Shown here: positions 5,240 through 18,980 of the stretch, piece by piece | Position numbering within the stretch: position 1 is the stretch's first letter | Layout of the letters: each line of letters starts with the position of its first letter | Virus record (IMG/VR): IMGVR_UViG_3300032080_000013 | Coordinates: 1 to 40,306 of that record | DNA length: 40,306 nucleotides | Direction: 5' to 3' (one strand) | Origin: a virus | The notes under the pieces: model-generated | Told to the model about the DNA's origin: nothing | Databases searched by the model: none | The model's input: the letters and a program-made list of their open reading frames with translations, nothing else | Translations under genes and position numbers: made by a program

Positions 5240-7861
5240 TTAGGAAATGTTAGCCGTGCCGACCCACCACGGGAAGCCGGGGACCGGGAAGGAGCCGCTG
5301 TACTCGAACTGGTCATTGCCACTGGTACCCATGCCGAACTGCGGTTTGCCGGGGTACGTTTCCATGCGGATCGGGCCGTAGCGGAAGTTGTGGACGCACC
5401 GGCCGACACCGTCAGCAATGGAGCAGGTGTACTGCACCGTGCCGTGGTTGTCGTGGTCTTCCACTCGGACGAGATCCTTGACGCGAGAGTCTTGAAAAGT
5501 CCTGCGAATCACGCCCGTGGTGCCGTTGTTCGTGAAGTCCACGAAGACCGCCGCTTTGATGGAGCGGACACCAACCACAACCGACGAAGTGACGTCGTCA
5601 GGGACAACTGCTGTGAACCGGGGCTGTGCCTTTTCCTTGATCGGGGCAATCGAGGTCGGGTTGGTGCCGCCCAAGCTGATGGCGTTGATCTGGACGATCT
5701 GATCTGGGCTGCCCCCTTGCGGGTAACCGCCGAGGTCGTAGGTGCGCAGCATGCCGTCTTCCGTGGCGATCCATGCACGCTTAGGGGTGTTGCCCAGCGT
5801 GTACGGATAGACCAGTGTGGCAGTTGGCTTGCTAGGAAGATCGATCGTCTTGATGACGACGGGCTTCTGCTGCGGCGCTTCGTCCAGCGTGTACGGCCAT
5901 TGACCAGCGTTGTCGCCGATGTTGGTCGTCTTCATGTAGTTCTCGCGTGACCCGAAATACATGCTGTTCATGTACGTGAACAAGGGCTTGAGGTCGAGGA
6001 AGATCGCCTTGGATTCGGTCTTGGAGATGACGACGGCGATGCCTTGGCGCGCGTAGCGGTCGCCGTAGTCGCCCACCGCCCAACGCTGGCGCTGGTCCTC
6101 GTAGTCGGTCCAATTTCCGGTGTTGCCGGTGGTCTCGTTGTAACCCGAGCCGTTGAGGTAGCGAAAGCGATGGTGGCCCGTGGTCGCCGTGATTTCAGTG
6201 GGCGCCATCATGCCGGGCAAGGGGATGTACCCGAGCACCTTCATATAGGCGAAGTTACCCAAATTGTGCATCCCCGGGTGCGCCGTGCGCCACTCACCCC
6301 ACCAGCCCTCAAAGTCCTTGCCCCGCGCCCGGTCCGGGTCTTGGTTGGCAATCGTTGCGCCTTCACCAAGGCCCGTGAGAGACACCACAGCGACTTCGCC
6401 GCGCAGGTTGATCGTGTCCCACACCGTCACCAGCAGGAACTCGTTGGACGAGGTCACAGCCGCCCCGGTGGGCTTCTTGCCTGCACCCAAATAGGTGAAG
6501 GTCTTGTTGGTCATCGTGTTGGCACCGACCGTGCAGATGAAGCCGTCATCAAAGATGCAGATCGTTTCTACCGCCCAACCCGGGCGACCGAAGGCGTGAG
6601 CCATCGCCACGGGGTTCTTGACCCGCTTGCCGCGATCCTTCCAATACTTCGGTTCCGTGCCGTCAAGGCCCGAGCCGTAGCGAACCCAGCTCAGTTCAGG
6701 CAGCAGCGAGACGACATAGTGGCCGTTGGAGGTGGCCTGAATGTCCGAGACACCGATGCGCGCGTTCGGATCATCCGGGGCATAGGCGATGTGCAGGACG
6801 TTGGACGCGAAGTCGCCCGAGTCCTCGTTGTATGTGCCGAGTTGGTAGTTGCGCACGTCGCCGACCGGCATGCGCTTGTCCGGCGGCTTGTACCAAGTGG
6901 GCAGATTGTTGATCGCTGCCGAGGGGCTGCCGTAGCGGTAGGCGATGCCAGCCGTGGACGACAGGTCAATGGAGCGGTACTTGGCCGCGTCGATCACACC
7001 GTTCGTCGTGATGGAATCGGTGACGCCTGGCACCACGGCGTTGTCTGCGGCTGCGAACGAGTCGCGGGCCTTGGCAGCCATCTTCAGGGCACCCGAGTCC
7101 TTCGGATGGATACCGTCGTAGGTGTCATCCAACGTGATCGCGGCTTCCATGTCGATCAGGCCATCGGCGAAATTCTTGTAGTTGGCCCGAATCCAAGTGT
7201 TGTATTCGATGCGGCGACTCTCGCGGCTCTGATCCCAGCTTGGCGAGAGGGCGCGCAACGTGATCGTCGAGACCCAGACTTTGTAGCCAGTCGCCCGCCC
7301 CTTGCCGGCGAGAGACTGGATGTAGTTCTTCATCGAAGCCACATCGCGGTTGTCTAGCGCCAGGTCATTCGTGCCTGCGCTGCCAACCACCATCGTGTCC
7401 ATCGTGCTGGCGTTGAACTTCGTTCCGGCGTGGTCGTTGCCGCCGTAGTTGTCGTTCATCTGGTTGAGCGTCGTGCCCGACACTGCCAGATTGAGGACGC
7501 GAACGCCCGTCAGGGTGCCGTACTGCGCCGGCCACGGCGTCGGATTGTTGCCCGTGCCCGAGGTGATGCTGTCGCCCTCAAAGACAACACCCTTGGGGAT
7601 GAATCCAGTTTGAGGCGTCGGCGTCGGCGTCGTGCCCGTGCCCGGGTTGGTCGTAGGAGGAACCACGGTGCCGACTGCGTCCTCGCAGATCTTCACCGCT
7701 GCGGTCGTGCGCTTGATCAGATCAGCGATGGCGCCGACGTCTTCCTTGATCTTGGCTTCCCGGCCTTGCACGTCGGAGAGCAGTTGCTTGAAAGACAAGG
7801 AGCGGTCGGTCAAGACCTTGTTGAAGGCGGCATTGACGACAGGAACGATAGGATCAGCCAT
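5240..7861 (-). CDS. Tail protein with SGNH/GDSL esterase domain, 873 aa
   Basis: A helical N-terminus (1-65) and a Pro/Thr/Gly linker (67-85) lead to an SGNH hydrolase domain (about 88-275). All blocks are visible: GDSIT with Ser98, Gly129 in NLAVSGTTL, GTND with Asn165, and DGIH with Asp249 and His252. The enzyme probably removes acyl groups from surface polysaccharide. The remaining 600 residues contain repeated WxxxYG and DDGxxxT patterns, compatible with a beta-propeller or other binding module. The start ATG shares a base with the preceding stop (TAATG). An active esterase is inferred from complete catalytic motifs. Confidence 0.85.
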   Translation of the reverse strand: MADPIVPVVNAAFNKVLTDRSLSFKQLLSDVQGREAKIKEDVGAIADLIKRTTAAVKICEDAVGTVVPPTTNPGTGTTPTPTPQTGFIPKGVVFEGDSITSGTGNNPTPWPAQYGTLTGVRVLNLAVSGTTLNQMNDNYGGNDHAGTKFNASTMDTMVVGSAGTNDLALDNRDVASMKNYIQSLAGKGRATGYKVWVSTITLRALSPSWDQSRESRRIEYNTWIRANYKNFADGLIDMEAAITLDDTYDGIHPKDSGALKMAAKARDSFAAADNAVVPGVTDSITTNGVIDAAKYRSIDLSSTAGIAYRYGSPSAAINNLPTWYKPPDKRMPVGDVRNYQLGTYNEDSGDFASNVLHIAYAPDDPNARIGVSDIQATSNGHYVVSLLPELSWVRYGSGLDGTEPKYWKDRGKRVKNPVAMAHAFGRPGWAVETICIFDDGFICTVGANTMTNKTFTYLGAGKKPTGAAVTSSNEFLLVTVWDTINLRGEVAVVSLTGLGEGATIANQDPDRARGKDFEGWWGEWRTAHPGMHNLGNFAYMKVLGYIPLPGMMAPTEITATTGHHRFRYLNGSGYNETTGNTGNWTDYEDQRQRWAVGDYGDRYARQGIAVVISKTESKAIFLDLKPLFTYMNSMYFGSRENYMKTTNIGDNAGQWPYTLDEAPQQKPVVIKTIDLPSKPTATLVYPYTLGNTPKRAWIATEDGMLRTYDLGGYPQGGSPDQIVQINAISLGGTNPTSIAPIKEKAQPRFTAVVPDDVTSSVVVGVRSIKAAVFVDFTNNGTTGVIRRTFQDSRVKDLVRVEDHDNHGTVQYTCSIADGVGRCVHNFRYGPIRMETYPGKPQFGMGTSGNDQFEYSGSFPVPGFPWWVGTANIS

Positions 7862-16869: not shown

Positions 16870-17022
16870 TCACCGCCCCTTGATGGCGTCAACGACTTCG
16901 CCTGCCATCAGCATCACCAGCATGCAGAAAAAGAGCGTAGCCATCCCCCAAGCTTCCAACGCAGCGCCAGCCGCCGTCATGCCCGTGGACATGAAGCCCA
17001 ACAGTATCGCAGGCGTCTTCAT
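16870..17022 (-). CDS. Small membrane protein, 50 aa
   Basis: The ATG overlaps the preceding stop as ATGA. The product MKTPAILLGFMSTGMTAAGA... has a first hydrophobic stretch (residues 4-22) and a second (GMATLFFCMLVMLMAG, 26-41), then EVVDAIKGR. Two spans or a hairpin are likely. It carries eight Met, unusual for its size. It is part of a run of membrane micro-ORFs at the head of the late operon. No known family. Confidence 0.65.
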   Translation of the reverse strand: MKTPAILLGFMSTGMTAAGAALEAWGMATLFFCMLVMLMAGEVVDAIKGR

Positions 17023-17291
17023 GCCGTCTCCTCTTGTCTTGGAGAGGGGAGGCGAAGGAGGGTTTCGTCTACTGCGTCGTCTCCGGGGTCACGGATGGGA
17101 CGGAGGTGGGCATCCTGCACATGAACTATGCAACCATCGCGCGCGTCGATGATCTTGGGGCTGGTCATCCAGCAGTCGCTCCAAATTGGGCTGGCCACAT
17201 CAATGCGGACAATGGCTCCAAGCAAAGGCGGGCACTTCGCATCTTTGCCTTTCCGCACCACAATCGCCAAATCTCCAGGTTTGCAGTTCAT
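17019..17291 (-). CDS. Hypothetical protein, 90 aa (SH3-like N-terminus)
   Basis: The start MNCKPGDLAIVVRKGKD, then LLGAIVRIDVASP and a C-terminal HVQDAHLRPIRDPGDDAVDETLL, give the pattern of a small SH3-like beta barrel (CKPGDLA.I....N.G..V.V) that recurs in many proteobacterial phages and prophages. Function is not known. It is coupled upstream and downstream by ATGA. Cys residues at 3, 20, 40 and 54 might bind metal, but no clear motif is formed. Confidence 0.75.
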   Translation of the reverse strand: MNCKPGDLAIVVRKGKDAKCPPLLGAIVRIDVASPIWSDCWMTSPKIIDARDGCIVHVQDAHLRPIRDPGDDAVDETLLRLPSPRQEETA

Positions 17292-17608
17292 CCTTGTTCT
17301 CCTTCAGGGGTAGCGAGGCGAGCGACTTGCTCGGCAATGGCGCGGCAGGCGCGAGGCTCACCGCTGGCTGCGTTGCTCAGATCAACATCGCCATTTAGCA
17401 GAGCCGTGTCCTTGTACGCGCTGTAATGGCTCTCCAGCTCCTCGCAGATCGTTGCCATCTCGGCTAGCGCCTGCTTACGGGAGGCTTGCCATGCTTCCCA
17501 AGCAACGAAAGCGGCGCAATCCCTGTAATTGCCATCCACAGTGCGCAGCAACCCGACAATTTCGTCTTGATCATGCGACCAAGCCTCAAACCTCTCCCGG
17601 TCGGTCAT
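17288..17608 (-). CDS. Hypothetical protein, 106 aa
   Basis: The start MTDRERFEAWSHDQDEIVGLLRTVDGNYRDCAAFVAWEAWQASRKQAL is chosen because the ATG overlaps the previous stop; the frame extends upstream only inside the neighbouring gene. The motif (RERFEAW....AAFVAWEAWQASR) is a widespread phage element found in small early or accessory proteins of enteric and beta-proteobacterial phages. Its role is unknown. The C-terminal half is helical and ends ARLATPEGEQG. Confidence 0.76.
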   Translation of the reverse strand: MTDRERFEAWSHDQDEIVGLLRTVDGNYRDCAAFVAWEAWQASRKQALAEMATICEELESHYSAYKDTALLNGDVDLSNAASGEPRACRAIAEQVARLATPEGEQG

Positions 17609-17826
17609 TTCTTCTCTCCCCGGATGTGACGGACTACGCGGGTGTTCCCGAAGCCAAGGGGCGGAATCAGCGTCTTGCGCTTGCCGCTCATGCCGGCTCG
17701 GTAGACCGCCGCGACATGCCGTGCGGTTTCTCGGGTCTCGTATTGCCCGTGCGTTCTCCACTTTTCGCTTCGGGAGTTTCGCACCTGAACACGCCACATC
17801 ACCTTCGTGCTGTCAGTCTTTGCCAT
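17605..17826 (-). CDS. Hypothetical basic protein, 73 aa
   Basis: The ATG at 17826 has an AAGGAG site at five bases; a GTG two codons upstream is possible. The sequence MAKTDSTKVMWRVQVRNSRSEKWRTHGQYETRETARHVAAVYRAG resembles a small beta-alpha fold like that of phage proteins that take double-stranded DNA or RNA as ligand. The C-terminus (NTRVVRHIRGEKK) is strongly basic. Family and role unknown. Confidence 0.72.
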   Translation of the reverse strand: MAKTDSTKVMWRVQVRNSRSEKWRTHGQYETRETARHVAAVYRAGMSGKRKTLIPPLGFGNTRVVRHIRGEKK

Positions 17827-17828
17827 GC

Positions 17829-17996
17829 TCACTCCTTGAATGGGTTAGGGACGATCACCACAGGCTTTCGTATGGGGCGCTGGAGCACGCGGCGAAGCCA
17901 TACCACGCCTCCACGCTCACGGAACTTGGTCCAGTCGTCTGAGGTTAGGCGGATGGCCGAGGGCTTGAGGGGGTGTTGGGGCTTTGGTCTTGGCAT
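17829..17996 (-). CDS. First gene of the late operon: small basic protein, 55 aa, probably leaderless
   Basis: The product MPRPKPQHPLKPSAIRLTSDDWTKFRERGGVVWLRRVLQRPIRK... looks like a one-helix DNA-binding or regulatory peptide. Two ATGs are possible (18002 and 17996). No ribosome site precedes either one. A strong promoter (TTGACT-16-TACACT) ends at 18003, so transcription should begin at about 17996, on the second ATG. That would make a leaderless mRNA. The stop is followed by the next gene two bases on. Confidence 0.65.
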   Translation of the reverse strand: MPRPKPQHPLKPSAIRLTSDDWTKFRERGGVVWLRRVLQRPIRKPVVIVPNPFKE

Positions 17997-18002
17997 GCCC
18001 AT

Positions 18003-18030
18003 AGTGTAGCCCGTATCGTAGCGCAGTCAA
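18003..18030 (-). promoter_or_regulatory. Leftward sigma70-type promoter for the late operon
   Basis: On the minus strand TTGACT (18025-18030), 16 bases, then TACACT (18003-18008). Both hexamers match consensus well, and it reads into the operon that begins at 17996 and contains terminase, head and tail genes. Transcription would start about seven bases downstream, at or next to an ATG. Predicted by eye. Confidence 0.55.
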
Positions 18031-18310
18031 CCCTTCTTTATCTCAATCTCATTCATCCATAGGACAAGCCAAGCGGGTGATATCCCCGACTCCAGGCATC
18101 CTGTCTTAGGACTCCTGCTCCCTGAAGGTCAGCTTCTATTTCCACAGCGCCCGTATCGTTGGGCTAGACGTCACATCACCGTTCTGCTGTGTTCCTGGTG
18201 TACCGCTGAAAGTCACCGCGCCGGCTTGTCAGTAAGCGCATCGCTGTCTTGGGTGCGCCGACGACAACGGCCATTTGCTGTGTCAACCTCCGCCCTGAGA
18301 TTGGAACGAC

Positions 18311-18419
18311 GAAAAGCCCGTTTAGGTTTTCGACCCTCCGCCGCCAAGCAAGGGGAATGCTCCCCAGAGGATCGAAGCCTAAACGGGCTCCGTTCGTGTC
18401 AGTGCTTGGCGGCTTGACA
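18311..18419 (-). ncRNA. Candidate pseudoknotted small RNA or late-leader attenuator
   Basis: A transcript from the promoter at 18426-18454 would begin near 18419 and could end at four U (18312-18315) after a 12-bp stem (18378-18389 with 18315-18326). That stem is extended by 10 more pairs (18367-18376 with 18329-18338) after a small internal loop. Inside it are a five-bp hairpin (18352-18365) and a segment (18340-18350) perfectly complementary over 11 bases to the 5' end of the transcript (18403-18413). Stems therefore cross in order B'-A'-B-A, giving a pseudoknot or two competing folds. By analogy with lambda pR'-tR', it may gate late transcription. No Rfam family recognised. Confidence 0.55.
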
Positions 18420-18425
18420 GGATCG

Positions 18426-18454
18426 ATTGTACAGCTATCGCAAGCGACGCTCAA
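18426..18454 (-). promoter_or_regulatory. Leftward promoter overlapping the 3' end of ninG
   Basis: On the minus strand TTGAGC (18449-18454), a 17-base spacer and TACAAT (18426-18431). The -10 matches consensus at five of six positions and the spacing is ideal. It would start a transcript at about 18419, the edge of the structured RNA unit. Confidence 0.55.
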
Positions 18455-18980
18455 GCCTCCTGAGCTTCTTGGAAAAGACTGCCCTCAGTCTCTCCAGATA
18501 CTCCCGGCTGTACTTGGCAGGCTTGTTCTGCGCGTACAGCCAGTCGATCCGCTCATCACCCCACCGCTCCCTCGCGCGGGGCAGGTACACCGCCAGGTTG
18601 CCGCTCAGATGGTTGTTGCACTGCGAGCAGCCCTTCGCTATGTTCCACAAGTTGTAGCGCACGCTAGAGGCTGCCCCCACGCTGCGTAGGTGGCTGGCAT
18701 GCCATTGCCCGTCCCAGTTCGGCCCCTTGTCACAGGAGCAGCAGCCCAAATGGCGGTCGCGCATCCTTACGTAGGCGTTCACGGCATGCTGCGCCCGGTC
18801 AGCGTAGGCAGACAAGGGTTCTATGGCCCTGAGCCGCGCTTTATCCGCCTTCTTCTCTAGCGCCTTGGTCTTCTTCTCTGCCTTGACCAGACGGATGGCG
18901 CACATGGGGGAGCAAGCACGCGCCCCCATGCGCTGAGGGGTGAAGATGGTTTGGCAGGATTCGCAGGTCCGGGGCTTCAT
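18435..18980 (-). CDS. ninG: NinG (Rap)-type recombination protein, 181 aa
   Basis: NinG/Rap of lambda is a Holliday-junction-acting endonuclease of the recombination pathway. The sequence starts MKPRTCESCQTIFTPQRMGARACSPMCA, a zinc-binding CxxC...CxxxC. A charged helix follows (VKAEKKTKALEKKADKARLRA), then CCSCDKGPNWDGQWHASHLRSVGAASSVRYNLWNIAKGCSQCNNHLSGN, the HNH-like core of the family (CxxC, His, CxxC...N). The length is typical. It is the last gene of the early leftward operon, coupled to ninB by ATGA. Confidence 0.9.
   Translation of the reverse strand: MKPRTCESCQTIFTPQRMGARACSPMCAIRLVKAEKKTKALEKKADKARLRAIEPLSAYADRAQHAVNAYVRMRDRHLGCCSCDKGPNWDGQWHASHLRSVGAASSVRYNLWNIAKGCSQCNNHLSGNLAVYLPRARERWGDERIDWLYAQNKPAKYSREYLERLRAVFSKKLRRLERRLR

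Follow-up and report, generated by a model that had tools for sequence, protein, structure and literature searches.

A candidate attenuator-type leader RNA with crossing helices beside ninG in a P22-like phage, and its relatives in other phage-type DNA

Results

The RNA element

The window, meaning the whole stretch of 40,306 nucleotides that was analysed (IMG/VR record IMGVR_UViG_3300032080_000013), belongs to a P22-like phage, with portal, scaffold, coat and terminase genes, Erf, O-like and DnaB-like proteins, and NinB and NinG. On the minus strand, just 3′ of ninG and between it and the late-side genes, lies the element studied here. The initial annotation had placed a promoter and two crossing stems at this site, and re-inspection of the sequence confirmed all its coordinates; it had also recognised no Q-like protein, and none, nor any member of the Q family, was found among the genes scanned around ninG. 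In transcript order the features are:

18426-18454, minus strand: predicted sigma-70-like promoter, TTGAGC-17-TACAAT, with the −35 inside the 3′ end of ninG and the −10 inside the insert described below
18403-18413, minus strand: S1 5′ arm, GCCGCCAAGCA, a few nucleotides inside the predicted 5′ end of the transcript
18378-18389, minus strand: S2 5′ arm, outer 12 nt, AGCCCGTTTAGG
18367-18376, minus strand: S2 5′ arm, inner 10 nt, TTCGATCCTC
18352-18365, minus strand: inner hairpin, GGGGAGCATTCCCC, placed after the S2 5′ arm and before the S1 3′ arm
18340-18350, minus strand: S1 3′ arm, TGCTTGGCGGC, within the loop of the terminator stem
18315-18338, minus strand: S2 3′ arm, GAGGGTCGAAAACCTAAACGGGCT, beginning directly 3′ of the S1 3′ arm
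18311-18315, minus strand: U-run, TTTT and then C, the terminator end

Helix S1 joins GCCGCCAAGCA (18413-18403) to TGCTTGGCGGC (18350-18340) in 11 perfect pairs. The outer part of S2 pairs AGCCCGTTTAGG (18389-18378) with CCTAAACGGGCT (18326-18315) over 12 positions, and its inner part adds ten pairs, one of them G-U, before the inner GGGGA/TCCCC hairpin; a T run follows S2. The two helices cross and have no base in common. Across the whole window they are the only crossing pair with arms of at least 8 bp, and in 200 dinucleotide shuffles of the window such pairs arose at 0.095 per shuffle with arms of at least 9 bp and never with arms of at least 10 bp, which bears out the crossing stems with a promoter that had first been described. 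Two of the 5 inverted repeats listed for the whole window are inside the element. The promoter at 18454-18426 has a 9/12 match, and 17000-18600 holds 3 promoter-like sites against 0.4 expected. A simple terminator scan missed S2 because it takes loops of 3-8 only; the GC-rich stem and U-run before a ribosome site are nonetheless laid out as in an attenuator built on an intrinsic terminator. The crossing-stem element is very probably a real RNA element, and its structure is well supported.

The insert that carries it

Comparison with the close relatives L006 and L007 shows that the element sits in additional DNA. The relevant features are:

18047-18441, minus strand: insert, approximate limits, lying between the 3′ end of ninG and the promoter of L006 type
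18176-18274, minus strand: 32-codon ORF behind GGAGG, at the site where other members have a gene
18056-18127, minus strand: 72-bp tail that differs by a single inserted base from the 3′ end of the L007 HNH-like cassette, last codons and stop included
18003-18030, minus strand: predicted promoter, TTGACT-16-TACACT, 21/28 identical to the post-ninG promoter of L006 and downstream of the RNA

The alignment of window and L006 runs to the last ninG codons, breaks off for about 395 bp and resumes at the promoter: the local match there is 39 nt long, the promoter alone has 21/28 identities, and shuffling gives p = 0.003 for the identity of the spacer. In L006, ninG is kept and the promoter stands directly at its stop; in L007, ninG is likewise kept, with a promoter at its end and an HNH-like ORF behind, named from its sequence, for which no Pfam family matched. 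Such an RNA is present in neither. The window promoter at 18030-18003 immediately precedes the first late-side ORF and is a probable late promoter. Its predicted start (18003-17996) is almost at the ATG of a 57-aa ORF, the mRNA of which may be leaderless.

The insert ends in the 72-bp block, near-identical to L007 4070-4142, which probably reflects a recent transfer. That the tail is common to the HNH-like cassette of L007 suggests that the RNA came with an HNH-type cassette of this kind, and the insert is probably an accessory, decayed endonuclease-type cassette; tblastn gave no significant match to an HNH remnant in 18126-18310. As separate observations, the NinG proteins of the window and L007 are only 48% identical despite the near-identical block, and the tail carries another GCTTGGC.

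Relatives of the element

The initial annotation had proposed an Rfam search, and this led to no matching family: Rfam 15 gave none above its gathering cut-off in the window, and over 601 bases with E up to 10 there were two matches, both far below their gathering scores. A group I intron or other known RNA was dropped for want of an Rfam match. BLAST of the element against phages and plasmids likewise returned no matches. A search with the S1 sequence found its arms at the right spacing in ten viral contigs, three of which (L019, L026 and L027) have the same design, with a second, unrelated stem, an inner hairpin and a U-run; the rest show no matching terminator stem. A genome scan added, among the matches listed, L028, which is a contig of 3.6 kb from the bin of a Kiritimatiellae MAG and has the gene order of L026 behind the RNA, and L117, an island of Azonexus hydrophilus (G003:C1:512001-520000) that adjoins an integrase and holds two copies, L117a and L117b. 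Members besides the window and L117b were found through the S1 sequence; L117b turned up in a scan that placed no sequence constraint on S1, and it still has CCAAGC. There are thus six sequence-distinct copies (window, L019, L026-type, L028, L117a and L117b) from about four independent lineages. All follow the order S1-linker-S2-hairpin-S1′-S2′-U-run, and in all six 0-5 nt separate the S1 3′ arm from the S2 3′ arm behind it.

Beyond these the architecture is rare. In 1.59 Mb of 50 other phage contigs there was no convincing match, and none in their shuffles. Exact S1 plus TTT, sought in 399, 300 and 398 genomes, gave Azonexus and one coding-looking match only, which makes one true genome among the approximately 1,100 searched for exact S1. 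A looser core pattern in 151 genomes yielded nothing convincing besides Azonexus, as judged from the listed sequences, and a freer S1 (RR/YY) no new member among the matches listed. The unconstrained scan gave 11 matches against 9 in reversed sequence, a poor control because reversal keeps inverted repeats, and shuffles replaced it. Among the leaders at 80 viral loci that carry a relative of the L117a HNH-type gene, one possible architecture was seen, L367: at 269-370 it has crossing stems with a different S1 (CATGGCGGTG/CACCGCCATG), behind TTGACA and upstream of a primase-like ORF, and may represent a wider family or chance. L048, from a Paceibacterota MAG, has on its minus strand (5242-5350) an extended S1 (TCAGCCGCCAAGC) behind TACAAT, plus a terminator, yet folds mainly as one nested stem and was kept outside the family.

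Conservation of the two helices

The core of S1 is CCAAGC/GCUUGG. Across the six members 95% of cells pair, against 19-46% in slid controls, and double compensatory changes occur at three pairs, all in L117b. S2 behaves differently: its sequence differs between lineages, and each arm pairs best with its own partner (5′ against own 3′ arm, 17/23, 20/20, 22/23, 13/13 and 13/13; against other members' arms, 5-15). In the L026-L028 group S1 and S2 are invariant, and the linker and inner hairpin vary. The S2 arms are unalignable between lineages. The test that the initial annotation had set, conserved helices with compensatory changes in relatives, thus came out in its favour: both helices recur and compensatory changes are seen. 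As CCAAGC is also carried by L117b, from the S1-unconstrained scan, the conservation of S1 is genuine, and since the architecture is rare in the contigs and genomes searched, chance sharing of the same 10-mer helix seems unlikely. Moreover, the S1 sequence is kept as well as its pairing, which suggests that something reads S1; no candidate for such a factor was found. The idea, taken from TGCTTGGCGGC, that S1 mimics helix I of 5S rRNA was dropped, as L117b departs from it.

Genes behind the element

In 6/6 members a GGAG, taken as a ribosome site, follows the U-run by 4-20 nt. What lies behind varies: a D5-type primase in L019; a short ORF, then a methylase-like gene (named from its sequence) and a primase in the L026 group; and an HNH-type gene directly behind each of L117a and L117b. 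For the last two, Pfam gave a weak match to one (E = 0.053) and none to the other, and tblastn matched annotated phage endonucleases. No HNH-type gene is directly behind the element in L019 or L026-L028. The 32-codon ORF of the window is perhaps a remnant, and there may be no regulated gene left behind the element here. Relatives of L019 lack the element upstream of their primase, which makes it portable, and the idea that it is conserved as part of a primase operon was dropped on the same ground. Both L117 copies are preceded by an identical TTTATAAATAA, found nowhere else in those 8 kb and never in shuffles.

Folding

In every member, a partial transcript stopping at the second S1 arm is predicted to form S1. 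With full transcripts nested folding, which cannot score a pseudoknot, mostly favours S2, with S1 slightly ahead in L117a and the two forced folds of the window nearly equal (−48.8 and −48.4 kcal/mol). To form completely, a pseudoknot would have to span 13-23 bp of S2 with a linker of about 14-28 nt, which is a tight fit. A pseudoknot or a switch between two folds had both been put forward; the sequence comparisons support a discrete, promoter-driven RNA of one or other of these kinds, both helices being found again in the relatives. Coexistence is simpler, because S1 and S2 share no base, and the two probably do coexist as a pseudoknot.

Discussion

The best reading of the element, held tentatively and at slightly less than even strength, is a portable terminator-attenuator leader RNA module. 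RNA polymerase would start a few nucleotides 5′ of S1 and yield an RNA of about 105 nt ending at the terminator S2; with the ribosome site at once behind S2, a downstream gene would be expressed only from polymerases that read through. S1, which ties the RNA 5′ end to the terminator loop, would be complete just before the S2 3′ arm is made, and its timing or strength would set the frequency of termination at S2, perhaps with the help of a factor that recognises the conserved CCAAGC/GCUUGG helix and stabilises it. The module would have reached this phage with an HNH-type cassette, probably decayed since. Transcription, termination, coexistence of the stems, regulation and any factor are what we infer from sequence; control of read-through is the most economical function because the ribosome site is just behind the U-run.

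In classical attenuators and riboswitch terminators the antiterminator overlaps a terminator arm. The element resembles these in its promoter, leader, terminator and ribosome site, and differs in that S1 and S2 have separate bases. The element has the look of a portable RNA control module, small and so far undescribed, with the same design before other genes in unrelated phage-type DNA. If this is true, termination would be tuned by a non-overlapping crossing helix, rather than a competing hairpin, in a portable unit; the module would offer a compact system for studying the influence that folding at the 5′ end of a nascent RNA has on intrinsic termination, and would hint at the way in which accessory genes of phages are kept quiet. 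Possible, with the balance against it, is the larger proposal of a new family of leader RNAs carried by phages, in which the 5′ end and the RNA's own terminator loop form a conserved helix. The resulting terminator pseudoknot would be recognised by a factor that several hosts share, and the family would spread as a cassette between genes of homing-endonuclease type and replication genes.

The element could also be a stand-alone small RNA, pseudoknotted, with its 5′ end in S1 and its 3′ end in S2, acting in trans or on a protein, the gene behind it being incidental. Promoter and terminator do bracket about 105 nt with both ends base-paired, the ORF behind the window element has only 32 codons, and the possible member L367 has no obvious gene directly behind. 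However, L367 may be unrelated, and a free RNA would have no need of the ribosome site found no more than 20 nt after the U-run in 6/6 main members; we consider this reading rather unlikely.

Improbable, in our estimate, is a post-transcriptional 5′-UTR element with little termination, in which S2 together with S1 shields the 5′ end of the mRNA or modulates the ribosome site at the foot of the stem. A stable stem directly before ribosome sites would suit it, as would a third GACCAAGCC between GGA and ATG in L117b, and stable hairpins may act so before T4-type homing-endonuclease genes. Against it, intrinsic terminators usually have just this shape, a U-run after a long GC-rich stem, and the ribosome site is outside the stem. 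The likeness to T4-type leaders lies in a stable structure that closely precedes the ribosome site of endonuclease-type genes and in TATAAATA, the T4 late promoter consensus, before both L117 copies. Most of the structures ahead of T4-type homing-endonuclease genes sequester the ribosome site, and seg43(25) of Aeromonas phage 25 has a very stable hairpin immediately upstream of it (PMC2988022). That report describes no crossing 5′-end helix and no shared S1, and the module here also precedes primase-type genes.

The initial annotation proposed a late-gene gate of the pR′-tR′ or put kind, in which read-through of S2 turns on the late operon. The position between ninG and the late-side genes, the promoter at the ninG end and the lack of a recognised Q fit such a gate, but its main reason is gone once the RNA lies in an accessory insert of ~395 bp, missing from the same junction in L006 and L007, with the probable, L006-like late promoter (18030-18003) beyond it. 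Elsewhere, what follows the related elements is replication or HNH-type genes rather than late genes, and the gate now seems quite improbable. To our knowledge tR′ has no crossing helix, and neither a Q binding element nor a −10-like pause sequence was seen by eye in the element sequence. The lambdoid pR′-tR′ unit with Q protein (PMC6606751) is similar in its promoter, short terminated RNA and downstream genes in the region after ninG; here, by contrast, no Q gene was recognised, the RNA is missing at this place in the close relatives L006 and L007, and a likely late promoter is downstream. The putL and putR RNAs of HK022, cis-acting, about 70 nt long and with two stem-loops, suppress terminators elsewhere (PMC9378689). 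Like them, the element is a phage cis RNA near a transcript start with a proposed effect on termination; unlike two adjacent stem-loops with no terminator of their own, it has one long terminator stem crossed by S1, which ties the 5′ end to the loop of that same terminator. Antitermination by put RNA goes through its binding to the zinc-binding domain of the RNA polymerase β′ subunit.

Very improbable are DNA-level sites, with the S1 arms as inverted protein operators or endonuclease sites unpaired in RNA: inverted operator copies would co-change too, and there are third copies (GCTTGGC in the 72-bp tail, GACCAAGCC in L117b), but the centre spacings (63, 64, 72, 72, 55 and 49 bp) are unphased, the S2 arms always frame the second S1 arm exactly, and the first S1 arm is close to the presumed RNA 5′ end.

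The Azonexus hydrophilus island deserves a closing remark: besides an integrase it carries several HNH-type genes, and two of these follow a copy of the RNA element. The third GACCAAGCC copy lies on its minus strand at about 4155-4146, after the GGA(G) and before the ATG of the gene that follows element b, and the second S1 arm of L117b could pair with this copy instead.
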